From Lunularia cruciata (taxonomy: Eukaryota; Streptophyta; Marchantiopsida; Lunulariales; Lunulariaceae), in assembly GCA_948567375.1 (NCBI GenBank), contig OX419757.1:76515836-76579835 (forward strand): DNA of 64,000 nucleotides, read 5' to 3'. A program made the translations under genes and the position numbers. The number at the start of each line of letters is the position of its first letter. The stretch's first letter is position 1. This document shows positions 1,166 to 22,425 of the stretch, piece after piece. Under the pieces are notes generated by a model. It saw only the letters and a program-made list of their open reading frames with translations, was not told the origin of the DNA and ran no database searches.

Positions 1166-1876
1166 CTACCATCCTCCCATACACAAAAGGTGTCTACCCT
1201 CCAATCTGAACCGTCTGGCTTGCTGAAGAACACGGTCTCTCTCCTTGGCCCCAACTGTGCCACCCACAACACCAGTGCAAAGATAGTCCATCACTAAGAC
1301 ATCATCATGAATGTCTCGCTGAATTGTACCAATATCTTCACTCTCTGGATCTGTGACCTCAATAACTCCTCCTGTATGCGCTGAGAGAGATACCACCAAA
1401 GTCTCTACAAATATACACAGAAAGGCCAATGCATGCCAACCTGGCACCATCTCCTCATCTGTCTCACCATGCCAACGTGCTCCGGTCTGATCCTGCTGGC
1501 TGGGACATGGGTTTCTACTCAACCCATCTACATCACGGTTCACCACTCCAGGTCTGTGAACAACCGTGAAATCATACTCTTGTAAAATCAGAGCCCATTG
1601 TGCAAGCTTCCCTGAAAGCTTGTCGGACTCCATCAACCACTTCAGTGGCTGATGATCAGTGATGAGAGTGAAGGAGTTACCAAATAGGTAACATCGGAAA
1701 TGTGCTACTGCCCAAACTGCTGCCAAGCACTCTCCCTCATATGAACTATACTTCGCCTCCGCTGAATTGTTGGAGCGACTAGCATAGGCCACCACAAACT
1801 CCTTCTCCTCATCATCATGCTGGGTGAGCACCGCTCCAAGCCCCAACATACTCCAATCAGTGTGAACCTGAAATGG
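1166..1876 (-). pseudogene. A1 RNase H domain
   Basis: The 227-codon open stretch 1166-1849 encodes a gypsy-type RNase H: the opening GLGAVLTQ, the YASR box, the YEGECLAAVWAV helix, the TDHQPLKWLM block and the NRDVDGLSR tail. It follows the reverse transcriptase in the same frame but is separated from it by a TGA at 1877-1879. The open stretch ends early at a frameshift (LLCMGGW then stop), where copy A2-left reads on into the integrase. In the intact element this domain would degrade the RNA strand of RNA:DNA hybrids during reverse transcription. Confidence 0.85.
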
Positions 1877-2527
1877 TCATCCCCTGATCGGTCTCCTCAA
1901 AATAGGACCAGATGTCAACCTCTCCTTGAGCTCTACAAAAGCTCTCTCCTGCTCATCTCCCCAACACCACTCCTGTGTAAGCTTGGTCAGCTTCATCAAG
2001 GCCTTGGCAATGGCACTAAATCCTCTAACATAGCGGCGATAGAAGTTTGCCAACCCAAGGAATGCTCGCACTCTGCTCACATCCGTAGGCCGAGGAATAC
2101 GTGCAATAGCCTCCACCTTGGTCTGCTGGACACCAAGTCCTCTGGGGTAGAAAGTGTGACCCAAATACTCAACCTGCTCGTGGAAGAACCTACACTTCCC
2201 AAGATGTAATTTGAGTCCATGAGATTTCAACCTCTCAAACACCTCCAACAACTGTCTCTCATGCTCCTCCACAGTAGTGCTATAGACCAAAATGTCATCA
2301 ATATAACACCGAGCAAAATCCAATCTAGCTAGGATCCTATCCATGACCCTCTGGAACTCAGCGGGAGCGTTCTTCAACCCAAATGGTAAGAACCTCCACT
2401 GATATAACACATCCTTGCCGTGAGGATCAATAGCCCCAAATGTTGTCTTGGACTTATCTTCCTCCCTAATTGGCAACTGATGATATCCCGCTCGAAGATC
2501 CAAAGTACTGAAGACCTTTGCATGCCC
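1877..2527 (-). pseudogene. A1 reverse transcriptase, C-terminal part, cut by B1
   Basis: This piece carries the palm and thumb of a Ty3/gypsy reverse transcriptase: FSTLDLRAGYHQLP with the first catalytic Asp, the FLPFGLKNAPAEFQRVM fingers, the catalytic YIDD box in CYIDDILVYS, and the FLGLANFYRRYV thumb motif. The N-terminal part lies at 10330-10651 on the far side of element B1. The two join in frame once B1 and one GCCC copy are removed, as the uninterrupted A3 copy confirms. It ends at a TGA just before RNase H. That stop is also present in A3, so it is either old or arose twice at a CpG-containing codon. Confidence 0.88.
2524..2527. other. Left target-site duplication of B1 (GCCC)
   Basis: GCCC precedes the 5' LTR and is repeated at 10330-10333 after the 3' LTR. 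The unoccupied site is visible in copy A3 near 21377, where a single GGGC (reverse complement) stands. A 4-bp duplication is within the range of Ty3/gypsy integrases. Confidence 0.85.
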
Positions 2528-3206
2528 TGTAACACACATTTGTGCATGTGTGTGGTATTGTGATATTTAGCTTGGTATTACAAGTACTTAAGAGATATTA
2601 TTTATATAGAGATAAAGGATGGTTCTATATTAGTCATGGTTAGCTAAAGTTAGTCATAGCTAAGATAGATGGGACCTTACTTTAGAGGAAGTAGAAAAGA
2701 TGAGCACCACTATTTTGGATTTTAGTGTGTTGACTTGGTATTATTCCTAGGTGTTTGGCTTTGGGGAAAGAGTTGAGAACTCTTGGGCCCGCAAGCCTTT
2801 TTGTTTTGGATTCTTCTTTAGTCCAAGGATAGCCCATGTGAAGGAATCCTTGCTTTAGTGGTTGGGTCAAGATAAGGGGAATATGCCCATGTGAATGGAT
2901 ATTCCTTTCTACTTTTTGACTTTACTTGACTTTTAGTCTAGTAACTTGAGTTACTACGGTAATTAGTAACTTTGGTACGTAACTATTTCACAAGTATATA
3001 AACAAGGAGTGAGGAGGTACTCATCATCCTTTCATTTGCAACTATCTCTCTCTCATTGAGTTCTCTAGTGAGCAATGTCTTGAGTCTTGGAGTGTTAGCC
3101 TTGGAGGAGTATGATGGAGTTGGGGTTCCTTGCCTTCTTAGTCCATGGTGCGCTACCATAATAGCCATCAGAGGTTCATCCTGAGTGAGAGACAGGCCGG
3201 CTCACA
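2528..3206 (+). repeat. 5' LTR of B1
   Basis: It begins TGTAACACACATTTG and ends GGCCGGCTCACA. The same 679 bp recur at 9651-10329, and 692-bp versions occur at 21734 (solo) and 62532 (B2). The B1 LTRs lack a 13-bp piece (ACCACATGCTTAG) present in those two. A TATA box (TATATAAA) lies at 2995-3002. The first 30 bases contain an inverted repeat (ACACACAT, 6-base loop, ATGTGTGT). Confidence 0.95.
2995..3002 (+). promoter_or_regulatory. TATA box in B1 5' LTR
   Basis: TATATAAA about 205 bp before the LTR end, the usual place for the promoter that starts the genomic RNA. Conserved at 10118-10125 in the 3' LTR and at 63012-63019 in B2. Confidence 0.7.
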
Positions 3207-3210
3207 TTTT

Positions 3211-3227
3211 TGGTTCCGTTGCCAGGA
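3211..3227 (+). other. Primer binding site of B1
   Basis: TGGTTCCGTTGCCAGGA starts four bases after the LTR. It resembles the tRNA-Asp type PBS used by plant Athila/Tat elements (TGGCGCCGTTGCCGGGGA), with a few mismatches. B2 has a closer match (TGGTTCCGTTGCCGGGA at 63228). Confidence 0.65.
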
Positions 3228-3247
3228 CCTCTCTAGAAGGCAAGATA

Positions 3248-3442
3248 ATGTTCCGCGTCCAATTCTACATTAGGCAGAAGGAGGCTATGAGAGCTCACTT
3301 GGAGAGAACATTAGGAGAGGAGAGGGCTGAACTTATGTTAGAGAACCAAGATCCATTTGTATACCCTGTAGTTCATTATGATGTCTTTGAGGTGATTTTT
3401 GTACATCTTGTACACATGAGAGGAATTGGAGAGATTGTGTGA
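3248..3442 (+). CDS. B1 leader ORF a, small, unknown
   Basis: A 64-codon ORF that starts MFRVQFYIRQKEAM and is kept unchanged in length in B2 (63265-63459). It contains the peptide DPFVYPVVHYDVFEV. A similar peptide (EPFVFPRVDYSQMV) can be read near 4640-4680, between the next ORF and gag, which hints at a diverged internal duplication or at exons of a spliced leader product. No known domain is recognisable. It may be coding or simply part of the untranslated leader. Confidence 0.35.
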   Translation: MFRVQFYIRQKEAMRAHLERTLGEERAELMLENQDPFVYPVVHYDVFEVIFVHLVHMRGIGEIV

Positions 3443-4043
3443 GGTGGATTGCAGATTTTGGGGATTAAGGTGATTTTGGGCAAAATCTCAAGTTTGAGAT
3501 CTGGACTTGAGATTTCTACACATGATAGCTTGGGTTATCTTCCAGTTAGCACACTTGAAATTATTGAGAGAGCTTCTATGCGCACTGGGCTAGAATGTTT
3601 GAAAGTTGATAGGGTAAAGTGCTCCCGCAACTGCATGCTCTCTGGAAAATTGTACAGAGTCTGCCATTTCTTCAATTTTTAGTGAATTGTCCTGAAAATT
3701 TCCAAGAAAATTCAGTGCATTGTATCCTACCTGGTGCCACAAAAATTAGAGAGAGATCATTTTTGCGCAGTGCGTTATGAGTTTTTGAAGTGAGGGGGGT
3801 GGTTTTCAGACCAAATCTGAAATATGGGTGCTGAATAGAAAGGTGTCTAGGCCAAATGGCTCGATGAAAAGATCTAAAATTTTGCAGGGAGGGACGCCCT
3901 AGAGTTGTGATCAAGTGTGGAAAATTTCAGAGGACTGTGACATATTCGTTGGGAGATTTGAGTGACATTGTGAGGAAGGGTCAATTCTGCAGAGTGGAGA
4001 TCTCATGCATGAGAAGTTTGAGATCAACAAAAAGCATGTTTGA

Positions 4044-4541
4044 GTGTTTAGATTCATCTTTGGGAACATGGAGGGTCATCAAGAGTGGAAATTGAGATTA
4101 TGCAAGGTTCCCCAAGGGTTTGAGGTGATTGTAGGGGTGGATTTGAGGAAAAGAGAGTTTACAATAGAATTTGAAGAGAGTGTTGAGAGGATCCAAAAAC
4201 CTACACCACTTGGAGGAAAGAGTGAGTCTAAGTGCTTTCTATGTGGAGAGAAGGGACATAAGGCAAGTTCATGTCCATTAACCTTTGAGAGCAAGAGATT
4301 GAGGGAAAGGAAAGGCTTACTTGACTTGGGTTTGCATGTTGGACCTTCTTCACCAAGATTGGGAGGGAGAAGATCTAAGACCAAGGAGTTGTGTGAGGTT
4401 TGTGGAGTTGAAGGACTTCCAAAAGGACATGAGTGTAGTGGAGTAAAAGCACTTTTGGAAACTTTGGTGAAGGATCTTGGAGAGAGTCTTAGTACAGCTA
4501 CAGAAATACTACCACCTTCATCAGCTAGCTCTCAAGATTAG
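4044..4541 (+). CDS. B1 leader ORF b with CCHC zinc knuckle
   Basis: A 165-codon ORF upstream of gag-pol. It carries a canonical retroviral-type zinc knuckle, CFLCGEKGHKASSC (CX2CX4HX4C, residues about 63-76), and a second cluster CEVCGVEGLPKGHEC (CX2CX8HXC, residues about 117-131), separated by a basic stretch. It ends in a Ser/Thr/Pro-rich tail. This is a separate protein from the gag-pol ORF, which has its own knuckle. Such motifs bind single-stranded nucleic acid, so a chaperone or packaging role is possible. Translation would need a subgenomic or spliced RNA or reinitiation, which the sequence does not show. The function is inferred only from the motif. Confidence 0.55.
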   Translation: MFRFIFGNMEGHQEWKLRLCKVPQGFEVIVGVDLRKREFTIEFEESVERIQKPTPLGGKSESKCFLCGEKGHKASSCPLTFESKRLRERKGLLDLGLHVGPSSPRLGGRRSKTKELCEVCGVEGLPKGHECSGVKALLETLVKDLGESLSTATEILPPSSASSQD

Positions 4542-4775
4542 TGATGGAGATAATCTTTCAACTTATGGATAAACTATCCATGAGAGTTAGATTAATATGC
4601 ACTCTAGGATTTGATGTTGCTATAGAAATCTTGGAGCAACCTGAACCTTTTGTGTTCCCTAGAGTGGATTACTCTCAGATGGTGTTAGTCATGTATATAC
4701 TCTATTAGTAATAGAGTGAGAGAAAAGAAAAGAGAAAAAAAAATTAAGAGAAAAGAAAGATAGTGAGGGGTTAAG

Positions 4776-7700
4776 ATGGGGAAACTTCCGGTTTTCTTTG
4801 GCAAGGATGGAGAAGATGTGGAGGCCTTTGTGAGAGACTTCAAGAGAGCTTGCATAGGAAACAATGAGAGGAGGAAGAATGAGTGGGCCTCATTATTACC
4901 AGATTTCTTTGAGGATGCAGCACTTACATGGTATGAGTCAGAATACCAAAAGAGAGAGAGGAGAGAGGGGGAAGAGGAGTCTTGGGAGACTTTGACTTCA
5001 GCACTCATTGAGAACTTTCTTCCTGATGAGAGTTATGAGAGATTGATGAGTGAGGTTACATTTCTCAAGCAAGGAGATGGAGAGAAAGTGAGGGTCTATG
5101 TGGAAAGAGTGGAAAAGTTGGAGTCCAGATTTCGCATAGTGTTGAGGAAGGGTGGGGATGATGTGGAGACTACAATGATTGGCATAGGGGCCATGCTCAC
5201 CAAGAATTTTGTGGGAGGATTGAGACCACAAATTAGAAGCAAGGTGAGATATGAGAAACCTTCTTCCAAGGTTGAAGCTATCAAGATCGCAATTCGTATG
5301 GAGGAGAGTTTGGAAGGGGATGAGAGTGATTTGGTGGTGAAGGAGGTTGTGCATCCTCCTCAAGGCTACAAGTATGGTGGAACTTCTGATACTTTGGTGA
5401 CAAGGGTTGCACCACAAGTAGTAGTTGCTCCAATTCTTGCACCTCCACCAAAAGATCCACTCCAAACCATCACAGAACAACTTGCGGATCTCAAGATCAA
5501 TGTGGTGCAACTATGGGAGAAGAGAGAGGTGGATCAGAATGTAGGGAGAGGACCTAGGAGTTATGGAAACTATCCATATAGAGGAGGCCAACCAGCCAAC
5601 AATTTCAATGATAGAAATTGTTTTGGTTGTGGAGGAAGAGGCCATATCCAAAGGAATTGCCCAAATTCCACTTACCATGGAGGAAGGGGTTATGAGGGAG
5701 CCAATAGAGGGAAAGAGGGAGGTAGTGAAACCCAAGTGGCTCCTAATCCCAACAAAGGTAAGGGGATAGCATCCATAGATGTGGTTGAGAGCAAGTATGA
5801 GAAGGGAGAGTGCTCAAACTCCAAGGGTCCTAATTTGGAGCTTTTGGCACAAGAGAAGAAGAGAGCTCGTTTTGCAGAGGATGTTCACTCTTCTCAAGGA
5901 TTTACTTCAAGCAAGGATACTCCTATGTCTACTAGGAGCACTCGCACCTCAGCACCATCAACAACAAAGACTCCAAGGAAGAAGTTGGGGATGGAGGACT
6001 TCTTGATCTCAAAGCAACAATGGAACTACAATGTGTTGGAGGATGTTGGTAGTCACAAGGCTAACATCACAGTGGGCCAATTAATTGCTTTGAACCCTAC
6101 CTTGAGAAAGGAGCTTAGAGGTGGTTTGAGTTCTACAAGGAGCAAGAAGAAGAAGAAGGCAAAAGTTCCAGTATCAATGGGGGTGGTGGATGCCAAGCCA
6201 GCACCATGGGAGGCTTGTGAATATGCCTCCAAGATTGATGTGAGAGTGAATGGTCACAACATCAAGGATGCATTGGTTGATGGAGGATCAACAGTGAATG
6301 CCATGTCAGAAAGGTTGATGAAGAAGTTGGGTATGATACCCTCAAGACCTTCAACATTTGTGGTGAGCATGGCAAACAAGCAACAAGTTCGACCAGTAGG
6401 AGTGATGGATAAGGTGGTAGTTTCAGTTATGGGAGTCCAAAATCTCATGACTTTCCAAGTCTTGAAGGATTCAAGCTATGACTTACTTCTTGGGAGGCCA
6501 TGGTTGAGAGCAGCACGCACAACTGATCGATGGCACAAAGGGTACTTAAGGATTGGGCCATCAAACCATAGAGTCACTGTTCCTGTGACTAACACCACCA
6601 ACACTTCACATTCAGATACCCCATCTTCTGATTATTGGGAATCAGATTCTGAAGGAGGAGCTTTAGGTGTGGACACAAGCATGGAAGAGGAGACTTCCAC
6701 GGAGGAGGATGAATCTGAATCTGATTCAGATGTGTATCCTTTATGTGCTATGGATTTTGCACCTAAGCCAGAGGTTTTGAAGGACCCAGATAAATCACCA
6801 TTGACACTTGAGGAGGTAGAGAGAAGGTTATCTACCCTCAAGTATGGCCCAAATGTTACCAAGGAGGAGAAGGTGAGATTTGAGGAGATTTTCCGCAAGT
6901 TCATCCATGTGTTTGCTTTTAGTTACAAGGATTTGAAGGAAGTCACCTTGGAGGAGCACAAGATAGAGGTGGAGTCACATGCAAGACCAATCCGCCAAAA
7001 GCAACGTCGCATTAGCCCACCAATATCTTTGGTTGTGAAGGAGGAGATTGATAAGCTCAAGGAGGCTGGATTTATCTTTGAGGTGGAGAATTCAGAATGG
7101 GTGTCTCCAATTGTCATTGTGAAGAAAAAGAATGGCAAGCTTCGGGTATGTGTGGATTACAAGAAGCTCAATGCTGTTACCAAGAAGGACTACTACCCAT
7201 TGCCATTCATTGATGAGATCTTGGAGGAGGTTGCAGGTCATGAGAGGTACAGTTTTGGAGATGGTTATAGTGGATATAACCAAATCAAGATTGCACCAGA
7301 GCATCAACAACTCACCACATTCACCACACCTTGGGGAACTTACGCTTTCAAGGTCATGCCTTTTGGGCTTTGCAATGCTCCAGCCACATTCCAACGGTTC
7401 ATGAACAAGGTATTTGAACCTTTCATTGGGAAATTTGTGAGAGATTTCATTGATGACTTTTGTGTCTATGGGAGCAAGGAGGAGCACTTTGAGCACCTAA
7501 TCAAAGTCTTGCAACGCTTGGATGAGGCAAATGCATCACTCAACCCAGAGAAGTGCATTTTTGGATGTGAAGAAGGTCTACTTTTGGGGCACATCATCTC
7601 CAAGGATGGAATAGCAGTTGATCCTGAGAAGGTGAGGAAAATCTCAGACCTTCCATTCCCTTCAAGCTTGACAAAGTTACGCCAATTCTTGGGAATGGTT

Positions 7701-9602
7701 GGGTACTACAGGAGGTTCATCTTCTCATTTTCCAACAAGGCTTATGCATTGACCATCTACATGAAGAAGGGTGTAGATTACATGGTGATTTTGGAAGACA
7801 AGGAGGCTCTCAAAGCTTTTGAGGAGCTCAAGCAATCCCTTGTTGTAGCTCCAATTCTTGCTAAACCTGATTGGAGTAAGCCTTTCATCCTCTACACTGA
7901 TGCTTCTAATGTAGCTATAGGATGCACTCTTAGTCAATTAGACCAAGATGGGCATGATCATCCAATAGCTTATGCTAGTAGGCAGATGGTTTCAGCAGAG
8001 AAGAACTACTCTGTCACAGAGAGAGAAGGGTTGGCAGTGATCTTTGGTCTCAAGAAGTTTAGACACTACTTGATTGGAGGGAAAGCCACAATTGTCACGG
8101 ATCACAAGGCTTTGAAGTACATCTTCAACAAGCCTAATGTTGAAGGGAGACTAGCAAGGTGGATGATACTCTTGTCTGAGTATGACTACACAATTGAGGA
8201 TAGGCCAGGAAAGAAACATGCAAATGCTGATTTGTTATCTAGAGCCTATGATCATGATGGAGATGAGCCAGTAGATGATTTCTTCCCGGATGAGGAGCTC
8301 ATGACAATCTTAGTCACTCAAGAGATTCCAATGGAGTACAAGGAGATTGTGGATTTTGTGACAAGAGGTAACTATCCAGAAGGGATGCATGCTAGGGAGA
8401 GGAAGGCCCTTGCAGCAAGATCTAGACCTTACACAATGGTGGAGGATATTCTTTTTCACCAAGGAGCAGATGGTCTACTTCGAAGAGCAGTGGGTAAGGA
8501 AGAGTCTATCTTACTCATAAAGGAGTTTCATGAAGGTTTAGTATGTGGAGGACACTTTGCAGGAAAGGTGACTGCTTTCAAGATTCTAGATGCAGGTTAC
8601 CATTGGAGAGGGATTTTCAAGGATTGTCTTGATTATTGCAAAACTTGTCATGTTTGTCAAGCTTTTGCTAGAAAGTCTACATCCACTCCACCACTTAGAT
8701 CAATTCCATTGCTAGGACCTTTTGAGAAGTGGGGAATTGATTTTGTAGGACCTCTCAATAGAACCCCAAGGAACAATCGGTACATTGTGGTAGTTACTGA
8801 TTACCTTACCAAGTGGGTTGAGGCTAGACCATTGAGGGACAAGAATGAAGATGAAGTGGGTAGATTTCTTTATGAACGCATTATCACTAGGTTTGGATGC
8901 CCTTTGGAGTTGGTTTCTGATAGAGGAGGAGAGTTTACAGGAAGCATTACTACAGCCATGCTACGACATTTCTCTATCACACATAGAGTAACTACATCCT
9001 ATAAGCCAAATTCCAATGGCTTGGCAGAGAGAACCAATCAGACCTTGTGCATGATGTTGGCCAAAGATGCAGAAATGGAGGGGGCTAAACATCATTGGGA
9101 CAAGAGGATTCATGCAATTTTGTGGGAGTATAGGACAACCATGAAGACTTCCACTGGATATTCTCCATTCCAATTGGTGTATGGTATTGAGTCTACCTTA
9201 CCTATTCACTTTGATCTTCCTACCTTCCAAAGCATTCATAGGAGATTGAAGAAAGCACAAGGAAGTGATGCAAGGAAGTCAAGGAAGGATCAACTCATGG
9301 AGTTGGAAGAGGCAAGAGCAGTTGCTATGGTTCGAGTGGAGCAAGCCCAAAGGAAACAAAAGGAGAGCTATGACAAGAGGCAAGGCAAGAAGAAGGTGGA
9401 GCCTTTCAAAGAAGGTGATTGGGTAATGTTGTTTGATTCCATTCGATTCAAGAGAGTGCAAAAGAAGTTTTTGCCTAAGTACTTTGGACCTTTCATAGTA
9501 GAGAAGGTGTGGGGCAATTACACCTATGATCTCAAGGAGTTGGGAGGAAGACACTTTGATAGGATTAACCATGATAAGTTGAAGATGTACCATAGAAGGT
9601 AG
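4776..9602 (+). CDS. B1 gag-pol polyprotein, intact (1608 aa)
   Basis: A single ORF encodes all replication proteins of the element. Residues about 1-180 are the gag capsid region. A zinc knuckle CFGCGGRGHIQRNC lies at 282-295. The aspartic protease has the DGGS active site at about 502-505 and LLGRPWL at 571-577. Reverse transcriptase follows, with YSFGDGYSGYNQIKIAP, VMPFGLCNAPATFQRFM and the catalytic FIDD box near 892. RNase H has FILYTDAS (about 1037) and TDHKALKYIF (about 1108). Integrase has an HHCC zinc domain (1251-1295), the DDE core (IDFVGPL, SDRGGEF, NSNGLAER) and a C-terminal FKEGDWV/GPF module. The protein ends KLKMYHRR with no chromodomain. FIDD in place of YVDD is common in this branch of plant gypsy elements and does not mean loss of activity. 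There are no stops or frameshifts. The start is the first ATG after the purine-rich leader. Confidence 0.95.
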   Translation: MGKLPVFFGKDGEDVEAFVRDFKRACIGNNERRKNEWASLLPDFFEDAALTWYESEYQKRERREGEEESWETLTSALIENFLPDESYERLMSEVTFLKQGDGEKVRVYVERVEKLESRFRIVLRKGGDDVETTMIGIGAMLTKNFVGGLRPQIRSKVRYEKPSSKVEAIKIAIRMEESLEGDESDLVVKEVVHPPQGYKYGGTSDTLVTRVAPQVVVAPILAPPPKDPLQTITEQLADLKINVVQLWEKREVDQNVGRGPRSYGNYPYRGGQPANNFNDRNCFGCGGRGHIQRNCPNSTYHGGRGYEGANRGKEGGSETQVAPNPNKGKGIASIDVVESKYEKGECSNSKGPNLELLAQEKKRARFAEDVHSSQGFTSSKDTPMSTRSTRTSAPSTTKTPRKKLGMEDFLISKQQWNYNVLEDVGSHKANITVGQLIALNPTLRKELRGGLSSTRSKKKKKAKVPVSMGVVDAKPAPWEACEYASKIDVRVNGHNIKDALVDGGSTVNAMSERLMKKLGMIPSRPSTFVVSMANKQQVRPVGVMDKVVVSVMGVQNLMTFQVLKDSSYDLLLGRPWLRAARTTDRWHKGYLRIGPSNHRVTVPVTNTTNTSHSDTPSSDYWESDSEGGALGVDTSMEEETSTEEDESESDSDVYPLCAMDFAPKPEVLKDPDKSPLTLEEVERRLSTLKYGPNVTKEEKVRFEEIFRKFIHVFAFSYKDLKEVTLEEHKIEVESHARPIRQKQRRISPPISLVVKEEIDKLKEAGFIFEVENSEWVSPIVIVKKKNGKLRVCVDYKKLNAVTKKDYYPLPFIDEILEEVAGHERYSFGDGYSGYNQIKIAPEHQQLTTFTTPWGTYAFKVMPFGLCNAPATFQRFMNKVFEPFIGKFVRDFIDDFCVYGSKEEHFEHLIKVLQRLDEANASLNPEKCIFGCEEGLLLGHIISKDGIAVDPEKVRKISDLPFPSSLTKLRQFLGMVGYYRRFIFSFSNKAYALTIYMKKGVDYMVILEDKEALKAFEELKQSLVVAPILAKPDWSKPFILYTDASNVAIGCTLSQLDQDGHDHPIAYASRQMVSAEKNYSVTEREGLAVIFGLKKFRHYLIGGKATIVTDHKALKYIFNKPNVEGRLARWMILLSEYDYTIEDRPGKKHANADLLSRAYDHDGDEPVDDFFPDEELMTILVTQEIPMEYKEIVDFVTRGNYPEGMHARERKALAARSRPYTMVEDILFHQGADGLLRRAVGKEESILLIKEFHEGLVCGGHFAGKVTAFKILDAGYHWRGIFKDCLDYCKTCHVCQAFARKSTSTPPLRSIPLLGPFEKWGIDFVGPLNRTPRNNRYIVVVTDYLTKWVEARPLRDKNEDEVGRFLYERIITRFGCPLELVSDRGGEFTGSITTAMLRHFSITHRVTTSYKPNSNGLAERTNQTLCMMLAKDAEMEGAKHHWDKRIHAILWEYRTTMKTSTGYSPFQLVYGIESTLPIHFDLPTFQSIHRRLKKAQGSDARKSRKDQLMELEEARAVAMVRVEQAQRKQKESYDKRQGKKKVEPFKEGDWVMLFDSIRFKRVQKKFLPKYFGPFIVEKVWGNYTYDLKELGGRHFDRINHDKLKMYHRR

Positions 9603-9641
9603 AGAGACCTTCACTTTGAGGACAAAGTGAAAACTTAGTCC

Positions 9642-9650
9642 GGGGGTAAA
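9642..9650 (+). other. Polypurine tract of B1
   Basis: GGGGGTAAA directly abuts the 3' LTR, the usual site from which plus-strand DNA synthesis is primed. Confidence 0.65.
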
Positions 9651-10329
9651 TGTAACACACATTTGTGCATGTGTGTGGTATTGTGATATTTAGCTTGGTA
9701 TTACAAGTACTTAAGAGATATTATTTATATAGAGATAAAGGATGGTTCTATATTAGTCATGGTTAGCTAAAGTTAGTCATAGCTAAGATAGATGGGACCT
9801 TACTTTAGAGGAAGTAGAAAAGATGAGCACCACTATTTTGGATTTTAGTGTGTTGACTTGGTATTATTCCTAGGTGTTTGGCTTTGGGGAAAGAGTTGAG
9901 AACTCTTGGGCCCGCAAGCCTTTTTGTTTTGGATTCTTCTTTAGTCCAAGGATAGCCCATGTGAAGGAATCCTTGCTTTAGTGGTTGGGTCAAGATAAGG
10001 GGAATATGCCCATGTGAATGGATATTCCTTTCTACTTTTTGACTTTACTTGACTTTTAGTCTAGTAACTTGAGTTACTACGGTAATTAGTAACTTTGGTA
10101 CGTAACTATTTCACAAGTATATAAACAAGGAGTGAGGAGGTACTCATCATCCTTTCATTTGCAACTATCTCTCTCTCATTGAGTTCTCTAGTGAGCAATG
10201 TCTTGAGTCTTGGAGTGTTAGCCTTGGAGGAGTATGATGGAGTTGGGGTTCCTTGCCTTCTTAGTCCATGGTGCGCTACCATAATAGCCATCAGAGGTTC
10301 ATCCTGAGTGAGAGACAGGCCGGCTCACA
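9651..10329 (+). repeat. 3' LTR of B1
   Basis: 679 bp, matching the 5' LTR with no difference noticed, including the lack of the 13-bp ACCACATGCTTAG segment. It is followed by the right target duplication GCCC (10330-10333). Confidence 0.95.
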
Positions 10330-10792
10330 GCCCAATCGCATCAAAAATCTCCTCCGGTGTAGGCATGGCATACCGATCAGCCCTGGTCTGTCGGTTGATA
10401 GGACGGTAATCTCCACACATCCGCCTATCTGTATAGTTGCCATGCATATCCTTCTTGGCTGGCATCACTGTCGCTGATGCATACTCTCCATGTGAAATCT
10501 CCACCAAACCAGCCTCAAAAAGGTCACTACTCCGGCTCTGAATCAATGTCCTCTCCATATCACTATATCGATAAGGACGTCGGAAAACAGGTGTGTTGCT
10601 AGTCAGCTCAATCCGTATACTAGGTCCCTTCAGAGCACCCAAATCCTTCATACTAAAGGCAAAACAACTCGTGTGACTCCTCGAGAACCTCCAAACCCTC
10701 CGTCTTTCCTCTCCAGTAAGCTTGGGTCCAAGATCTGGCTCCCAAGTATCCTCTGTAACTGTAGTAGGAGTGGAAGACGTACTGACTAGCTG
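10330..10792 (-). pseudogene. A1 reverse transcriptase, N-terminal part
   Basis: The stretch 10330-10651 reads through SMKDLGALKGPSIRIELT, the PVFRRPYRYS block (the usual RT entry motif), GEYASATVMPAKKD and the CGDYRPINRQT box, and ends at PTPEEIFDAIG, where B1 is inserted. The bases to 10792 join it to the methyltransferase C-terminal fragment, after a TAG at 10793-10795. Together with 1877-2527 it makes a full gypsy RT. Confidence 0.88.
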
Positions 10793-11275
10793 CTACATTG
10801 GGCCCTTGGGAGCAATGGTGTCATGCTCCCGACCACTAGAGGTCCTAACCTCTGTGTGAAAAACTCCCTCCACTCTGGCTGCAAGCTCCATACGTCCTCT
10901 GGCTGCATCCCATGTGGACCAAGGGTGTAATCCAAGTAGCCCACGCTCACCTGGATGGACTCCAAGTAGACCACTCTCCCTAGTAGCTACTGGATGTGTC
11001 CCAAGAATACCATGTCCACTCGGTCCATCGCCCCCAGCATGTGCCTGAATCGTCTCGATAGGCACAGGGCTCACAAGTGTCTGAGTGGTGATGCCTATCA
11101 AGTGCATCCTACGCTGCTCTGCCAAACCAAGGCTCACAATCCAGGTCAAACAGTTCAGGTCCATAGCCTGACCTAACACGTGACGCCTAGATGCCTCTGA
11201 CACTACTGGAACAGCGGTAATATTGGTGCAAAAACCCATCACACGCTCTCTCTCATCATCATTGGGCTCCACCAA
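10793..11275 (-). pseudogene. A1 methyltransferase C-terminus (motifs IX-X) and linker to RT
   Basis: In the same frame as the large fragment at 11477-13267. It contains ERERVMGF...ITAVPVVS and then RRHVLGQAMDLN, which match the pattern of motif IX and motif X in DNMT3-type enzymes (ER-[IV]-x-GFP, ...VS, R-x-x-LLG-x-S). This is the segment that completes the SAM-binding fold. About 80 further codons up to the stop have no recognisable domain and probably form a linker to the reverse transcriptase. Copy A3 keeps the equivalent at 20607-20876. Three stops between 11275 and 11476 separate it from the catalytic part. A3 shows sense codons at two of those positions, so they are mutations and not the end of the gene. 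Confidence 0.75.
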
Positions 11276-11476
11276 CTACTGTAACTGTGAGTCCCAAACA
11301 AGTCCAGGTCCTCCTTCTCAAAAAGCATGAGAGCTTGGGAAACTCATGAGTGTGGGAAATGCAGCTCTAGGCTGTCCAACTAGGTTCACCACTGCCATAG
11401 GTGACCTATCAGCCACTACCAATGTCTGAGACTAACGTCCAACATCCAAGATATCATCAACAAGAATGTGGTCTAG

Positions 11477-13267
11477 TCATTGAATCCCATCATAACTATG
11501 TTGTAGAACCTCTCTTGGTAAAAGGTTTGTCCACCAAAGACGAAGACGATGAGCCCATGATCCCACTCTGGCTGCATCTAACAATGCAGCAGGTCCCATC
11601 CATAAATGGACCTGATGTATACTTGCCACCACTCTAGTGCGAGAATCACCCATCAATGGAACGTTCTCCAAAAGGTAAGCTGGAGAAACAGACTGATGAA
11701 CCTGGAGATGTCGTAGTATCCGTAACATCTCCCAAAACACACCAGAACAAGGATCCTGAAGACCCAAACCACGGCCGGCACGTGTATGTCCCTGACATGG
11801 CCATCCAGAAATCACCAAGTGAATAGGCCCATGTCTCTCTAGGTCATGCGCCCCCAATAAGGAAATGTCTCCTGGTAAGGCCTTCTGGTAACCTCTGACT
11901 GCTGACATCGGTAATAACTCCGGATACCGATACGCCAAGTGTGCCACATGATGTAGAGAGACTCGCCTAGCAGTCTCATCTCTCTCTACATACAAGTACC
12001 TCTGTACTCGGATACCCGCCTGTAACACCGCAGCTAGTCCGGTGCTGATCCCACCAAAGAACTCCAATAGACATATCCCCTCTACTGGGTACTGCCAAGC
12101 AATGAGTGTGGTATCCAGAGGTGTCAAAGCAATCGCCTCTGGAGGCTCATCCTCACACTCATCCCCTGATGGTACGAAGGCTCCACTCCAAGCCTGTTGC
12201 ACCAACTGATCTGCATGCTGCTGCAATGCCTCCTCTGAACTCCACAATGGAACATCCAAGGTGGATGGAACAATCCCACTCGTACTCCATAGCCGAGTGA
12301 TCTCCTCTGGTACTGGAGTATCCTCTGCATGGGCGTTCCCCTCCAACAAGTCACCAGGCCAAGTAACTGCACCGCTGAAAGCTAAAACTGATGCTGTCAT
12401 GGTCCCGGACTGTAGTGAGCCAAGACTGCCACTACTGAAGCATACTGGTAGGCAACATACCCATCCCTCACCAGACTGCCAACCAGGTCTATAAGAGGCT
12501 GTCTCCTCCCAATAGTCAATGCTGAAACCCATAGGGTATAACACTGCTCCCCCAACTAGCACATCGTATGACTCAGCTATCGTCGCAATAGCCTGAGCTC
12601 TCACCACCGAGCTATCAGTCGGATGACCAGGCTGAACCTGGACAACAAGCTGTCCACGTGTAATGTATTGTGTCGAACCACCACCAAGAGATGTCTGGAT
12701 CTGAAATGGACACCTCTCCACATCGGTCTTTTGTAACTCCAGACCAACAACTGCAGTCTTCCCCAACATAAGGGGCTGCGCACCAGAGTCTAACAAGACT
12801 CTCTGTGGTGTATAGACCTTCCTTGAAGGTCTCACCAAACAAAAAATCCCCCTCTGGTTATCCAATAGGACAACACCAGGTGTAAACCGCGCTCTCTCAA
12901 AGGCCGGTCTAGCTAGCAACTCCTCCAATCTAGCCATTGCTGCCTGCCATAAACCACTGGTCGCTGAACGGACCCCATGCTCCTCAACCAAGTCAGCTCC
13001 ACTACCAACCACCTCTGCTCTAGTAGTAGGAACTGCACCATCCCTACTCTCACACAACGTGGCAGCCAACCGGAACACTGGGGCTGGGTCAACTCCTAAT
13101 GTTAACATGTCACTAGCTGAAAATAAAGGATGCCGCATAATCAGCTGAGCCGCCCCCAACATCATGCTAGACTCAATCTGTGTAGAAGCAGCTGGCTGAC
13201 TTGCAAGTACTCCATCAAGTACTCCATCACCCCCTACCACACCTGCACTGGGACATCTAGGAACCAT
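11477..13267 (-). pseudogene. A1 aspartic protease plus C5 DNA methyltransferase domain (596-codon fragment)
   Basis: Residues 1-130 are a linker. A retropepsin-like protease follows with VLLDSGAQPLML (active Asp about 160) and a downstream YDVLVGGAVLYPMGF block (about 234-248). Residues about 397-585 form a cytosine-C5 methyltransferase: motif I CLLEFFGGISTG (399-410), motif II YLYVERD (424-430), motif IV ISGWPCQG with the catalytic Cys at 491, motif VI LLENVP (532-537) and motif VIII AHRLRLWWTNLLP (572-584). The VIII block and the C-terminal motifs at 10793-11275 look most like DNMT3/DRM enzymes, which transfer a methyl group from SAM to cytosine in DNA. The domain sits between protease and RT, in frame with both. 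The frame ends at a TGA where A3 has GGA. Residues 270-395 match nothing I recognise. Methyltransferases captured by retrotransposons are known in dinoflagellates and a charophyte alga, so the class is not wholly new. Confidence 0.88.
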
Positions 13268-13339: not shown

Positions 13340-13882
13340 CTATGGGTCCAACTCCACTGATGCTCCTCTAGGCTCTGGAGCACGTACTGCACTCCTAGTC
13401 ACTATTGCAGATGCATCCACCTGTGCTGCTCCGCACATGAAGTCCAAAGCATCTCTATCACCAGCATATGAGGTGGAAGCCTCAGCACCCGAATCTGATC
13501 TCCTCTGTGCAATAGCCATACTAGCCAATCTTTGCTCCAACTGCTCAATCCGAGTAGCCATAGCTGTGTCAGAAGTAAGGGCAGGTACTGCACCCCTACT
13601 AGGTGTAGATCCTCTACCACCACCTCTACCACCTCGTCCTCCATGAACTGGAGCTCCTCTACTACCTGCCATAGCAGCCCTACCACTCCGTAACTCCGGG
13701 TGTAGGTCAAAACACCGGTCACTAGTGTGACCAAATCTGTGGCAATGCTCACATTGCCTCTGTGCTGGCTGTGATGCACCAGAGGTATCAGGTCCGCTGC
13801 CCTGAGTACACTCTCTCCTATGGTGAGGTCCACCACAAGTCCAACAAGCAACACCACCACTCATTGGCTGATGCTGACCCAA
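13340..13882 (-). pseudogene. A1 gag, nucleocapsid part with two zinc knuckles
   Basis: A 180-codon open stretch in the same frame as the protease-methyltransferase part. It has two CCHC knuckles, CWTCGGPHHRREC and CEHCHRFGHTSDRC, then a Gly/Arg-rich run (GGRGGRGGGRGS) and a coiled region (ATRIEQLEQRLASMAIAQRR). These are typical nucleic-acid-binding features of the nucleocapsid end of a gag protein. A stop at 13340-13342 and another before 13267 separate it from pol in this copy. Confidence 0.85.
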
Positions 13883-13954
13883 AAATGAGGGTAAGGGTCT
13901 AATTCCACTAGGCCCTCCACTCGCTCCATAGGATCTGGGCTGTCCACCCTGTCC

Positions 13955-15081
13955 TCAAAAACCAACTGGGCGTGGTGCACTCTGCTGCACTCTAGAAGAA
14001 GTCATAACCGTGGATGAGGTCTCTCTACCAAATCCAGCTGTCACCACTCTCTCCTCCACCATGTTGAGCTCAATACGCTCAGCCAAACCAAAGACTACTG
14101 CCAAAGTGGGCAAAGTAGCCTGCAACAACGTAGCATCACGAACTCTACGTCGCAACTCCCTGTCCAATATCCCATACCAAAACTGGACGGCCTGGGCCTC
14201 AGTAACTCCCTGAGTGAAACTGATCAGCCGCCTCATGCGAGTGTATGCCTCGCGTAGGCTCTCTCCAGCCTTCCGCTGGAACTCCTGCAAGCTCCTCAGC
14301 TTGTCAGTCCGCACTCCCTGGTAGTTCTGCCTCAAACATAGGAAGAACTCCACCATGGGGTTAAACCCCGGTACCACACCACCTCCTGCAGCGGTACCTC
14401 CACTCGTAGTAGCACTATCTCCAGCTAGTGCACCTCCACTAGCTCCACCAACACTACTCGAGCTAGAACTCGTGGGTACAGCCGATCTAGTCCTGGCCAC
14501 CGAGCCTCAAGTGATGGAGACATAGTGTGGAGACCAATACTGTCTCCATAACTCAATCTCCTCCAAATGAGCTCTCCTGAACTCATGGTAGTCGTCCATC
14601 GGTGGACCCTCCAAGTGCTGAAACAACTCCTTCCATGCCATGAAGGGTGTGAACAAAGTCGGGTTCCGCATCTGCTGCAGATCACACCAACTATCAAACT
14701 CCTGGATGAAGTCATCCAACTCAATGGTACCCACTGTACCAGAGTAACGGGCCTAGGGCCTTTGGAGGCCCCATAAATCTCGTCCATGTCCTACAACAAC
14801 GGTGCAGGCACACCAAGTGCACTCTCAACTGAATCAGCTCCTGTGTCAAACTCCAACTCAGAGTCAATCTCCTCCCTCACTGGGACCTGAGATACAGGCT
14901 GATACCGAGCACCACTCCGAGTAAACCCACTGCGTACTGCAGGGCTAACTCCTCTGGAATCTCCAAAGAACTCCGTCGTGACCACGTAACTGCAACAGCA
15001 AACCCGAACCACCAACTGCAACCGCAAGTCGCAACCGCAAGTACCCCACCAAGTGCCAACACCACCTCGTGCCAACACCAA
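13955..15081 (-). pseudogene. A1 gag, capsid region, broken
   Basis: Three open pieces (14791-15081, 14507-14734, 13955-14500) together match the open 302-codon gag of copy A2-right. A conserved gag core can be read: MVEFFLCLRQNYQGVRTDKL, LQEFQRKAGESLREAYTRMRRL and VQFWYGILDRELRRRVRD, the pattern of the Retrotrans_gag family. A low-complexity Ser/Gly run follows residue 5 of the last piece. A1 has a stop where A2 has Trp (LL-stop-DMD), an indel near 14750 and a TGA where A2 has Ser (near 14505). The start is uncertain because both copies have more than one in-frame ATG after the PBS. Confidence 0.8.
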
Positions 15082-15407: not shown

Positions 15408-16750
15408 TGGCATTTGACATAAGAGTAGTTTGTATCTAAGTCCTAAGCTACCAGGATCACCAAGAATGGGATCAAACTGCCTCTCCTAGCCAAAGCTACA
15501 TGTGTATAGGTAACAGTGGCACAGTCACTATGACAGAAAGTGAGGGTGGACCAATTGGCTAGGGCAGTAGTCTAGGAACAAGAGATCTAGGGGTCAAACC
15601 TTGTTGCGCACAATCTAGCAAGAAAGGCAGATTTTTCCAACCAATGACCAAGATCTACACTAAACTAGCTAGCATCACGCCAACAAGCTGGCTTGTTGGC
15701 CCTTCTAGGCCTTCGTAGCTTCTCATAGCCCACAGCCCTATGCCTCGAAGCCTCGAAACGCCAAATGAGGCCTTTCTTGTTGCGACTTCAAACCTCCTCC
15801 AAAATTGGCAAAACTTCTCCAAATCTGCAAAACTCCTCCAAACTAGCAAAACTTCTCCAAATCTGGCCAAACAGCAAAACTCCTCCAATTCTGGCCCAAA
15901 ATCTGACGTAAATCTGACATAAACCCTAAAGATGGATGTCCGCCAAATCCCCCGCTAACTTTCCACTCGAGCCAAATTGACAAAACGGGTTTTTCCAAAT
16001 CACAATTTCATGAGAAGAGCTTTCCAACTCCACCTTCAATTTCACTTTCTGAGCCCAACTCGGAGCAAATTGGTCTTGCCTTCACCTCCTGAGCTCAAAA
16101 TCACAACACTGCTCAAAAATTGCTCCTTCTTTGCTCAAAATTTGGCCAGCGCTTCCGCACATTGTCCGCCTAACTGCCAAATTTGCATCAACTACACGAG
16201 CTTCTGCACACTAGGGAAACAGAGAACCTGAATCGAGCTACCACGATCCACCGAGCTTGGAGATACCACCAACACTCAACGTTCCTGCACCCAATTTCCC
16301 CCTGACTTCACTCTTTGATGTAATCAGATTGCTTAACACTCTCAACTCAACTCAACTCAGATCAATACCTGATCTATCACTCTATAAACTGCCACCAACT
16401 GGGCACTGATTACAGTCAAGCCACACCAACTCAAGCATAGAGAATCCAGGTGACGCTCACCGGCCTCTGTCCACCATAGCCAGGAACTCGAAGGCTCAAC
16501 ATCAGAGAAGTGAGCTCACTTCAAAACTATACCCCCTGGACTCAAGCTAGCCCTGAAACCCTAACGGTCCCGCTGACGGCACACTCGACGGTGCAAAGTG
16601 ATGGTGGGCCCCACCGTGAAGTCAGTACCCCGAACACCAAATCAAACTATCGGAAAGTAGTCCCTGAGAAACTGCTAGAATAACTCTAACTACTATCACT
16701 GGAACTCCAGTGTCCGAGCAACTAGATGCGGAACTAAAAATGGCGTGACA
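15408..16750 (-). repeat. 5' LTR of A1 (about 1.34 kb)
   Basis: It begins TGTCACGCCATTT (16750 leftwards) and ends ...AATGCCA two bases before the PBS. The homologous LTR of A2-right is 59655-61017. Both start at exactly the same base, next to unrelated sequence (element C here, element A RNase H there), which fixes the outer border. The inner part has a purine/pyrimidine-asymmetric tandem repeat of about 20 bp (TTTGGAGAAGTTTCGC and variants on the element strand, 15795-15905) and a tRNA-like segment (15547-15604). Confidence 0.8.
15547..15604 (+). other. tRNA-like segment (A-box and B-box) inside LTR of A
   Basis: The sequence GGACCAATTGGCTAGGGCAG followed 25 bases later by GGGGTCAAACC resembles the A and B boxes of a tRNA gene or tRNA-derived SINE, on the strand opposite to element A. 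The same segment is kept in A2-right (about 60827-60884, minus strand). Paired stems are imperfect and no functional tRNA is claimed. Confidence 0.3.
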
Positions 16751-19203: not shown

Positions 19204-20900
19204 GGTGAGAGCTCAAGCTATTGCAACAATAACTAAGTCATATGATGTGCTAGTTGGTGTGACAATGTTACACCACATGGGTTTCAATATTGACTATCGG
19301 GGAAGAGATAACCTTATATAGACTAGGTTGGTAGTCAGGTGAGGGATGAGTATGTCATCTACTAATACACTCTAGTAGTAGCTCACTATAGTTAGGAACC
19401 ATGGCATTAGTCTTAGTTTTTAGTGGTTTTGTTCTTGGCATAGTGATTTACTAGAGGAGAATGCCCATGTAGAAGATACTCCAATACTAGAGGATATCAC
19501 TTGGATTTGGAGTATGAGTGGGATGATTCCATCCACCTTGGATGTCACATTATGGAGTTCTGAGGAGGCTTGCAGCAACATGAAGATCAATTAGTACAAT
19601 AGGCTTGGAGTGGAGCCTTTGTACTACCAAGAGACTAATGTAAGGATGATCCTTTAAAGTCTTTTACCTCGTCACCTTTGGATACCACACTGACGTTTGG
19701 TAGTACCTAATAGATGGAGTATGTCTGCTGGAGTTGATTGGAGGGATTAGCACTAGACTAGTTGCAATATTACAGGTAGGTATACAAGTACAAAGTTACT
19801 TGTAGAGAGAGATGAGACTACTAAGCAAGTCTCTCTACATCATGTGACACACTTGGCCTATTGATATCTTGAGTTATTATTTATGTCAACAATTAGGGGT
19901 TACCAAAAGATCCTACCAATAGACATTTCCTTGTTGGGACTTAGGATTTGGAGAGAGATGGTGTTATTCATTTGGTGATTTATAAATGGCCATGTTAGGG
20001 ACATATCTATGTAGGCCAAGGTTAGGGTCTCTAGGATCTCCATTTTAGTGTGTTTTGGGAGATGTTACGTATACCATGACATCTCCAAGTTCATTGGTCC
20101 ATTTCTCTAGTCTACATTTTGAAAAATGTCCCTTTGATGGGTGATTCACATACTCGGGTGGTGGTGAGTACACATCAGGTCCATTCTTGGATGAGACTTG
20201 CCATGTTGTTGGAAGTAGCCAAAGTAGGAATAAAAGCTCATCATCTTTGTCTTTGGTGGACAAACCTCTTACATTAAAAGGGTTCTACAACAAGCTTATG
20301 ATGGGATTCAAGGACTAGACAACCATACTATTGATGATATTTTGGAGGTTAAGAGCCAGTCTCAAATGGTGGTAGTGGTTGATATGTCACTTATGGTAGT
20401 GGTGAACCTTGTTGGACAACCTAGAGCTTCTTTATCCACACTTATGAGTTTCCTTGGCTCCTATGTTTTTCAAGAAGGAGGTCCCGGACTTGGGACTCAT
20501 AGTTATAGTAGTTGTGGAGTCCAACGTTGATGAGAGGGAGTGGGTGATGGGTTTTCATACTAATATTAATGCTATTATAGTAGTGTCAAAGGCATCCAAG
20601 CATTAGGTGTTAGGTCAAACTATGGATCTGAATTGTTTGACTTGGATTGTGAGCCTTGGCTTGGCAAAGCAATGTACAATGCGCTTGATAGACATCACCA
20701 TTTGGACACTTGTGAGCTCTATCCCTATCAAGATGATTCAAGTTGATGATGGGGGTGATAGACCAAGTGGGCAAGGTATTCTTGGGACACAGCTAATTGC
20801 TAGTGATGAGAGTGGTCTACTTAGGATCCATCTAGGTGAGCCTTATAGCCAGAATAGAAAGAGTTTTCCACGTTGAGGTTTGGAACTCTAACGGTTTGGC
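19204..20900 (+). pseudogene. A3 protease end and DNA methyltransferase
   Basis: Decayed counterpart of A1 11477-13267 and 10793-11275. The protease block reads VRAQAIATITKSYDVLVG at the start. Methyltransferase motif I is readable near 19723-19765, the motif IV region near 19975-19995 (TGGCCATGT kept, next codon now TAG), motif VI near 20120, motif VIII near 20245-20275 and motif X (LGQTMDLN) near 20607-20640. It continues past the two A1 stops as GIQGLDN... and LEVKSQS, showing that the ancestral frame was open there. Confidence 0.75.
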
Positions 20901-20929
20901 GCATGACATTATTGCTCTTAAGGGCCTAG

Positions 20930-21733
20930 TACGGCAGCTTGTAAATATGTCTTCTACTCCTACATCAATTATAGAGGATACTTGGGAGGCAAGTATTGGA
21001 TCCAAGCTTATAAGAGGGGAAAGACAAACAATTTGGAGGTTTTTGAGGAGTTACATGAGTTGTTTTTCCTTTAGTATGAAGGATGCTCTAAAAAGGCCTA
21101 GTATTTAGATTGAACTTACTAGTGATGCACCAATTTTTTGACATCCCTAAATTTATAGTGCCATGGAGAGAACATTGATTTAGAGCCAAGGTAAAGAACT
21201 TTTTGAGGTTGGTTTGGTGGAGAGCATGCTTCAACTACTATGATGCTAGCCAAGAAGGATATGCATGGCAACTACACAAATAAATAGATGTGTAGAGATT
21301 GCTATCATATCAATTGATAGACTAAGGCTGATTGGTATGCCATGCCTACACCAAAGGAGATGTTTGATATGATTGGGCATGCAAAAATCTTTAGTACTTT
21401 GGATCTTCAAGCAAAATATATCAATTGCCAATCAAGGAGGATAATAAGTCAACAATAACATTTTGGGCTATTGATCTTCATGGTAAGGATGTATTATTTT
21501 AGTGGATGTTCTTACCATTTGGGTTAAAGAATGCTCTTGCTGAGTTCTAGAGGATCATAGCATGGATTGGATTTTGCTTGGTGCTATATTGATGATATTT
21601 TAGTCTATAACACTATTGTGGAGATCATGAGAGATATTTGTCGATGGTGTTTGAGAGGTTGAGATCTTATGGACTCAAATTATATCATGGGAAGTGTAGA
21701 TTTTCTTCCACAAGCAAGTTGCATATTTGGGTC
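20930..21733 (+). pseudogene. A3 reverse transcriptase
   Basis: Homologous to both halves of the A1 RT, but without the B1 insertion. The junction site GATTGGGCATGC is whole near 21373-21384. The catalytic box is kept as TGCTATATTGATGAT (CYIDD) near 21581. Many stops. The gene is cut at 21733 by the solo B LTR, which lies near the start of the GHTFYPRGLG motif. Confidence 0.75.
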
Positions 21734-22425
21734 TGTAATACCCATTTGTGCATGTGTGTAGTATTGTGATATTTAGCTTGGCATTACAAGTACTTGAGAG
21801 ATATTATTTATATAGACATAAAGGATGGTTCTACATTAGTCATGATTAATTAAATTTATTCATAGCTAGGATAGAGTGGACCTTACTTTAGCGGAAGTGG
21901 AAAAGATAAGTACTATTATTTTAGATTCTAGTGTGTTGATTTGATATTATTCCTAGGTGTTTGGCTTTGAAGAAAGAATTGAGAACTCTTGGGCCTGCAA
22001 GCCTTTTTGTTTCGGATTCTCCTATAGTCCAAGGATAGCCAATATAAAGGAATCCTTGACTTAGTGGTTGGGTCAAGATAAGATCACATGCTTAGTGGAA
22101 TATACCCATGTGGATAGATATTCCTTTATACTTTTTGACCTTACTTGACTTTTAGCCTAGTAACTTGAGTTACTCCGATAATTAGTAACTTTGGTGCATA
22201 ACTATTTCACAAGTATATAATCAAGGAGTGAGGAGGAACTCATCATCCTTTCATTGGCAACTATCTGTCTTTTATTGAATTCTCTAGTGAGCAATGTCTT
22301 GAGTCTTGGAGTGTTAGCCTTGGAGGAGTATGATGGAGTTGGGGTTCCTTGCTTTCTTGGTCCATGGTGCGATATCATAATAGCCATTAGAGGTTCATCT
22401 TGAGTGAGAGACAGGCCGGCTCACA
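21734..22425 (+). repeat. Solo LTR of element B (B3)
   Basis: 692 bp with TGTAATACC and GGCTCACA ends, clearly the same LTR as in B1 and B2 but with many substitutions, so it is older. No B internal sequence follows. The flanks are GGTC (21730-21733) and TGTC (22426-22429), a 4-bp duplication with one change, and the target sequence in A1 has a single GGTC. Solo LTRs arise by recombination between the two LTRs of one element. Confidence 0.9.

Follow-up and report, generated by a model that had tools for sequence, protein, structure and literature searches.

A DNMT3-type cytosine methyltransferase ahead of a conserved leaky-context stop in a bryophyte family of Ty3-type retrotransposons

Retrotransposons are among the main targets of DNA methylation, and a methyltransferase gene conserved at high copy number within such elements raises the question of what the parasite gains from it. 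The question is posed by a 64,000-nucleotide stretch of the Lunularia cruciata genome (assembly GCA_948567375.1, contig OX419757.1, positions 76,515,836 to 76,579,835; hereafter the window), in which a retrotransposon designated element A carries a C5 cytosine DNA methyltransferase between its protease and its reverse transcriptase (RT). Comparison with related copies gives a family architecture of A1-Gag-CCHC-protease-methyltransferase-UAG CARYYA-RT-RNase H-integrase-PHD finger-B1-A2-B2, where the A and B segments are terminal repeats. Element A lies on the minus strand and consists of the following parts, including the insertion that splits it:

16321..16750, minus strand: 5' terminal repeat A1, about 430 nucleotides (nt), beginning TGTCACGCC; self-blastn match to 56909-57362 and 59657-60102, start set by pattern
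13340..14790, minus strand: gag region with a CCHC knuckle at 13849-13742, whose frame changes near 14757 and which holds several stops; PF03732 E 0.0054, below cut-off
12125..12796, minus strand: aspartic protease (LLDSGAQ) and spacer, in the same frame as gag and methyltransferase
11105..12124, minus strand: DNMT3-type C5 cytosine methyltransferase (PF00145), motifs I, IV, VI, VIII, IX and X in canonical order, four internal stops
10793..10795, minus strand: conserved junction stop between methyltransferase and RT, TAG then CAG CTA (CARYYA)
10330..10792, minus strand: start of RT, in frame past the junction stop, interrupted by the nested element
1..2527, minus strand: remainder of element A, with RT, RNase H and integrase (PF00078, PF17917); LRCMLCG at 21-1
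2528..10329, plus strand: nested ordinary long terminal repeat (LTR) Ty3 element splitting the RT of element A, LTRs at 2528-3206 and 9651-10329, 100% identical; no part of the finding

The gag, protease, methyltransferase and RT of element A share one reading frame: a same-frame translation from 14506 to 10331 meets nine stops and zero frame changes, with a tenth stop directly upstream of 14506, and the gag shifts frame near 14757. An earlier sequence-only reading had placed the methyltransferase in frame with both protease and RT, and this translation bears it out. The protease signature LLDSGAQ/DSGA lies at 12796, motifs I, IV, VI and VIII at 12070, 11809, 11674 and 11560, motifs IX and X at 11254 and 11188 (span 11254-11162), and the RT signature at 10417. 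This copy is dead, and one of its stops, 10795-10793, is a conserved family feature, not decay. The domain order Gag, protease (PR), RT, RNase H and integrase, established with Pfam profiles, is that of Ty3/gypsy (Metaviridae-type) elements; among relatives, Asp_protease_2 fell below cut-off in L003 and P0185 and above it in P0187. Element A exits the window where its PHD finger begins.

The sequence-only reading had also proposed a C5 methyltransferase within a Ty3-type element, and the profile search confirmed it, as PF00145 matched the element A reading significantly (E 2.3e-6, 27.7 bits, cut-off 22) and motifs I, IV (PC), VI (ENV), VIII, IX and X are all present. Catalytic residues are retained in 68/70 and 73/76 alignment rows. 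Against PDB sequences, phmmer placed DNMT3A on top (35.7 bits), and the profile designated A2 scored DNMT3A at 61.9 bits, DNMT3B at 55.1, 4onj (which we take to be a plant DRM) at 37.2, DRM2 at 25.6, and HaeIII and HhaI at 25.8. The predicted structure of a relative (P0027), with a predicted local distance difference test score (pLDDT) of 83 from 78 sequences after a poor earlier model (pLDDT 54, 12 sequences), had DNMT3A/B as top fold matches; DRM was none among the 50 fold-search matches listed, which is no evidence against DRM. The DRM class is rejected on motif order, since DRM enzymes carry motifs VI-X before I-V, as in the rearranged DRM-like gene of the host (L006), whereas element A runs unrearranged from I to X, an order that fits DNMT3 and not DRM. 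With DNMT3 as best match and a canonical order, the domain falls in the DNMT3 class; of the DNMT3/DRM-type likeness claimed earlier, the DNMT3 part is upheld by profiles, fold and order and the DRM part falls. In the tree the family stands beside DNMT3 plus DRM (branch support 84/55, with human DNMT3A present only as a 165-residue piece), and tree and profile scores disfavour a simple bacterial capture. Remote matches of the family profile were viral-contig and Streptomyces methyltransferases (L001, L002 and L004; 28-34% identity), two of them from viral contigs. The host genome also encodes two intron-bearing DNMT3-like genes (L005 and L008) with PCQ instead of PCN in motif IV; DNMT3-like motifs, including this PCQ, are common to them and the family, but they differ from it in having introns and in grouping with DRM and human DNMT3A, outside the family.

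The domain extends well beyond this locus. Protein searches, whose reach is restricted by word sharing, the number of candidates and the length of the protein, listed 88 relatives with the element A piece, the best 120 of 390 with eight family domains, and 80 down to E 1.2e-4 with divergent members, the weaker ones being bacterial-type. Annotated relatives among the matches listed come from Marchantia polymorpha, Calypogeia fissa and several Sphagnum species, in agreement with the earlier claim of a land-plant case; many others are metagenomic, and one family match is filed under a bacterial metagenome-assembled genome (MAG). The family tree comprises about four subfamilies, and two Marchantia gene models (P0013 and P0193) join the methyltransferase to RT and RNase H. 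The L. cruciata genome search covered a 565.8-Mb assembly of 74 contigs, with listed matches on eight contigs of 60-85 Mb each, about 558 Mb in total. PF00145 yielded 2161 first-look candidates, of which 123 places were scored, all above cut-off and a few of them host genes, and the RT query yielded 3271, of which 40 were scored, the unscored ones being unconfirmed copies. A methyltransferase-chosen set (L013-L052) took 40 of the 123 PF00145 places by rank, leaving out host genes and, by no fixed rule, seven family rows in range (L009 and six others). These copies are 90-97% identical to element A across about 2.4 kb, the methyltransferase is uninterrupted by stop or frameshift in 6/40, and open frames holding PF00145 matches reach 1428 residues. 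An RT-chosen set, made of the first 20 RT matches (out of 40) once the window itself and four copies of the first list had been set aside, represents the copies most similar to element A in RT, and in 20/20 the methyltransferase lies upstream of RT and aligns across the full 1020-nt query. The search for intact copies suggested by the sequence-only reading thus returned such copies, and none lacking the domain among the 20. A one-off chimera is rejected on these 20 copies, the intact copies and the relatives, and the methyltransferase is a family trait.

A second copy of the same gene lies in the window, decayed as previously claimed:

19204..24534, plus strand: decayed element A3, methyltransferase remains at about 19695-20760 (tblastn and self-blastn)

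A3 is 79% identical in nucleotides to element A over the aligned part, 19204-21377, and its methyltransferase part holds 11 stops and seven small indels. Comparison of the two gives ratios of nonsynonymous to synonymous substitution rates (dN/dS) of 0.38 (0.27-0.54) for the methyltransferase, 0.35 for RT, 0.32 for the protease region and 0.75 for the pre-RT linker; these values and those that follow are rough, because copies decay after insertion. Across 41 sequences (the 40 copies plus element A), mean dN/dS is 0.41 for the methyltransferase (internal branches 0.21, terminal 0.50), 0.69 for RT (0.33 and 0.79), 0.53 for protease plus spacer (0.87 and 0.54) and 0.95 for the tail after the methyltransferase (0.84 and 0.96), which serves as an internal control; the 15 codons past the junction stop give 1.52. 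The dN/dS of the domain, proposed as a check with the earlier reading, is 0.41 against 0.95 in the tail, and on these ratios the methyltransferase is under purifying selection.

How the enzyme is likely to be expressed turns on the stop behind it. The junction stop occurs in 40/40 copies (39 TAG, one TAA), with CARYYA next in 38/40, and the RT-chosen set has TAG in 20/20 and CARYYA in 19/20, while the next commonest stop in the stretch is found in 16/40. CARYYA follows only 6 of the 2123 TAGs in the window, and among the nine stops of element A it follows only that at the junction. UAG CARYYA is the type I (tobamovirus) readthrough signal of plant viruses (PMC5382211), and both of its sequence features are found here, the motif itself and a next open reading frame (ORF) in frame. 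Because the 40 copies are close kin, the strong evidence for the leaky-context stop comes from L003, a 9285-nt contig (CADCWO010000201.1) filed under a cyanobacterial MAG, whose content is an intact eukaryotic retrotransposon and whose methyltransferase is 50% identical to P0027 and belongs to another subfamily. In L003 an open Gag-PR-methyltransferase frame runs from the contig start to TAG CAA TCA, followed in the same register by an open RT-RNase H-integrase-PHD frame with its first methionine not before residue 117, which argues against re-initiation. The ends of this contig repeat 127 nt, like a circular assembly (positions 1-9285). Of 43 proteins carrying the motif X pattern, the window piece included, 32 end 71-157 residues later, nine sooner and two continue into RT, and 31/42 relatives end in this same zone past motif X, in counts where a stop and a contig end are indistinguishable for most proteins and the search favours certain lengths. 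The junction segment is missing from both proteins running into RT, as expected of spliced gene models. Plain decay as the origin of the stop, suggested by the CGG of A3, is rejected on L003 and the protein ends. Since the conserved UAG CARYYA separates Gag-protease-methyltransferase from RT-integrase, the methyltransferase belongs to the Gag ORF; the earlier picture of an enzyme built into the polyprotein is right about the shared frame and needs correction in that the enzyme sits in the Gag-protease ORF before a conserved leaky-context stop, and not in pol proper.

The far end of the element, beyond the window for element A, is preserved in another copy, element A4:

57654..59654, minus strand: element A4, with RNase H, integrase and a C-terminal PHD finger (PF00628) at 57797-57654 ahead of the stop
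56803..57482, minus strand: 3' split repeats of A4, B1 at 57482-57360, A2 at about 57357-56909 and B2 at 56908-56803

The PHD finger past the integrase matches PF00628 in A4 (E 9.2e-11, 42 bits, cut-off 24) and is found in the same place in L003 (E 4.3e-10), and a Marchantia model (P0044) combines methyltransferase pieces with a PHD finger. A repeat A of 430-450 nt stands at the 5' end (A1), its start being present in 10/10 genome copies fetched, and B1, A2 and B2 follow one another at the 3' end; two B copies were found in 8/10 of these copies and in A4, and L013 and L049 showed one. The B1/A2 junction reads GACAGCTGTC and is identical in L003, and in the nine copies (of 10) that could be aligned, identity between A1 and A2 is 97.3-99.8%, indicating that some insertions are young. 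TG..CA bounds the element, and the 4 bp of flank are identically duplicated in 7/8 assessable copies against 2/56 mismatched pairings. An ordinary Ty3/gypsy LTR element is rejected, because the 3' repeat copy is followed by B sequence and the outer ends are not two complete LTRs; inspection by eye only recognised no transfer RNA (tRNA) primer site after A1. DIRS/PAT-like elements have a tyrosine recombinase and no target duplication. The split direct repeats of the family are those of this group, but the Pfam matches of L003 include no tyrosine recombinase and an rve integrase instead.

What, then, might the enzyme do? With confidence somewhat above even, we favour the explanation that an abundant bryophyte Ty3-type family captured a DNMT3-class methyltransferase once, long ago, and that the enzyme writes on the element's own DNA copy. 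Sequence comparison establishes the anatomy and its conservation and points firmly to purifying selection; methylation of the element's own DNA copies, which the sequence-only reading had suggested beside methylation of host DNA, would be the leading guess as to function. Most ribosomes would halt at the UAG, so that the methyltransferase would be produced at the level of Gag and be packaged into the particle, and readthrough of a few percent would supply RT-integrase-PHD. The enzyme would methylate the element's double-stranded DNA copy inside the particle or on exit from it, the integrase would insert this copy via its TG..CA ends with 4-bp duplications, the PHD finger may tether integration to a histone state, and the split repeats may substitute for a tRNA-primed LTR cycle. 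That such domains can methylate DNA is supported by the SymbioDIRS enzymes in yeast (PMC5890265). A more elaborate account, possible but doubtful, joins writer and reader: a de novo methyltransferase made at Gag level through the leaky UAG and packed by the element would pre-methylate the DNA copy before integration, and a PHD-guided integrase would carry this copy to matching chromatin, the whole having been assembled once before the moss/liverwort split and perhaps reaching back to the streptophyte algae.

Several observations weigh against the favoured explanation. KnitGypsy-Dnmt3, the nearest relative known for the family, did not methylate de novo in yeast (PMC5890265), and singleton C-to-T changes among the copies show no enrichment at CG (0.14 per site, against 0.25 at CHG and 0.19 at CHH) and so do not point to self-methylation there. 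In the tree, support is weak (84/55) for the branch that unites DNMT3 with DRM next to the family, 34/40 fetched methyltransferases carry a stop or frameshift, and the A3 junction reads CGG CAG CTT, with no stop. The terminal-branch dN/dS of the methyltransferase (0.50) also lies below 1, and the ratio may thus be partly compositional, while the internal-branch value of 0.87 for protease plus spacer fits no simple story. Mean dS among copies also varies by region (protease plus spacer 0.093, methyltransferase 0.072, tail 0.033, RT 0.040), and median identity to element A is 95.4% in the methyltransferase versus 97.4% in RT; recombination among lineages is a possible cause of these regional differences.

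Other roles for the enzyme must be weighed against self-methylation. It might act on RNA, or structurally in the particle, and not on DNA: an RNA role has been considered by de Mendoza et al. for the LINE-borne enzyme, neither that enzyme nor KnitGypsy-Dnmt3 methylated DNA in yeast (PMC5890265), and the Gag-side position fits a particle role. However, the enzyme groups with DNMT3/DRM, DNMT3A/B top the fold search, the catalytic residues are kept in the alignment rows counted above (68/70 and 73/76), and SymbioDIRS-Dnmt3 domains methylate CG in yeast (PMC5890265), and we consider such a role unlikely. The target could also be the host genome, for instance in silencing competitors or in self-restraint, and not the element's new copies. 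The high copy number (123 scored PF00145 places; 3271 first-look RT candidates, 40 scored) could yield much enzyme, a PHD finger suggests chromatin contact, and host effects and self-restraint are discussed by de Mendoza et al. (PMC5890265), but the Gag ORF contains the enzyme and the integrase product contains the PHD finger, so the two are probably not on one mature protein, and a host target likewise seems improbable.

The structural evidence itself could be read otherwise. If the junction UAG were a fixed nonsense mutation in a non-autonomous lineage with RT supplied in trans, the stop would have no recoding role; the 60 copies examined are close relatives sharing it, one ancestral event could suffice for them, and A3 is without it. 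Little credence can be given to this reading when L003, from another subfamily, has the same UAG and CARYYA with its second ORF intact and in frame, CARYYA is as rare after window TAGs as 6/2123, 31/42 relatives end in the same zone, and RT has an internal-branch dN/dS of 0.33. That the domain is a functionless passenger or an annotation artefact, as the broken state of element A and 34/40 copies might suggest, is scarcely credible in view of its low dN/dS, its presence in 20/20 RT-chosen copies and its conservation over about four subfamilies.

The window and its surroundings contain further traces of the family, among them one more inserted copy:

59655..62530, plus strand: further inserted copy with A1 repeat at 59655-60102, leader and gag, interrupted at 62531 by a repeat like the LTR of the nested element

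Besides the nested element, repeats resembling its LTR lie at 21733-22426, inside A3, and from 62531, after this copy, which makes three insertions into methyltransferase elements within one window. About 24 kb before the window, a copy at G000:C6:76491594-76492010 (L053) has an RT start 100% identical to that of element A, the same TAG CAG CTA, and a methyltransferase only 96.1% identical to it; this copy is perhaps a mosaic formed by recombination. Outside the family, exons resembling a basic helix-loop-helix (bHLH) gene, presumably of LRL type, occupy 30734-35511, where three single ORFs had no Pfam match, and the highest guanine-cytosine content of the window, 0.594, falls in the 2-kb segment at 30001.

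The significance of the family lies in the possibility that a parasite places on DNA the very chemical mark by which its host silences it; if the account joining writer and reader holds, this mark would have been at the parasite's disposal over hundreds of millions of years. Marchantia is a tractable laboratory plant with annotated relatives, and the question is therefore directly testable there. Counts of bryophyte methyltransferase genes may also mix host genes with retrotransposon copies.

Parts of this anatomy recur in other systems. The dinoflagellate elements SymbioDIRS-Dnmt3 and SymbioLINE-Dnmt are likewise retrotransposons with a captured DNMT, but they are of DIRS and LINE type with unrelated pol, and their authors regard the captures as independent; in yeast, de novo CG methylation was obtained with the two SymbioDIRS-Dnmt3 copies tested and not with SymbioLINE-Dnmt (PMC5890265). 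The A1 5' and B1-A2-B2 3' split repeats resemble those of PAT-like, Ngaro and VIPER tyrosine-recombinase elements (PMC6681497), from which the family differs in its rve (DDE) integrase, TG..CA ends and 4-bp target duplications. Type I readthrough signals are described in a virus replicase gene (PMC5382211), whereas here the signal stands between Gag-PR-methyltransferase and RT, and SIRE1 similarly has an in-frame stop between retroelement frames with stop suppression, although the frames are other ones (PMC2194720). Among the open-access papers listed for retrotransposons with methyltransferases in land plants, for Ty3 elements bearing a PHD finger, and for leaky stops and split repeats, none matched this combination. 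In their available text, a 2025 survey recounts the cases from streptophytes and dinoflagellates and labels the LTR element Copia (PMC12344493), and a Marchantia methylome paper, where the term DNMT3 does not occur, reports five host methyltransferases in three classes (PMC5784723).

The closest counterpart is KnitGypsy-Dnmt3 of the charophyte Klebsormidium nitens (de Mendoza et al. 2018), and the link to charophyte elements drawn in the sequence-only reading is supported (PMC5890265). Klebsormidium names were none among the matches listed in the three protein searches, which is no proof of absence, and the words PHD, Marchantia, Sphagnum and liverwort are absent from the available main text of that paper (PMC5890265). 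The authors call its yeast result, no de novo methylation, inconclusive because human DNMT3B failed too, and report fewer copies than for the Symbiodinium elements (PMC5890265). Like the bryophyte family, KnitGypsy-Dnmt3 has Ty3/gypsy domains, an unrearranged DNMT3-type domain under purifying selection (Ka/Ks <0.2) and the same kind of repeat layout, which the authors describe as "the same as that of a DIRS retrotransposon"; its DNMT is placed in the Pol polyprotein ORF, whereas that of the bryophyte family lies in the Gag-protease ORF before UAG CARYYA (PMC5890265). Compared by published description only, the two are probably of one lineage. The 2018 charophyte case is thereby extended to mosses and liverworts, the new features being the Gag-product enzyme, the chromatin reader on the integrase and the uncommon repeats, and we judge the bryophyte family to be a new land-plant variant of the KnitGypsy-Dnmt3 kind.

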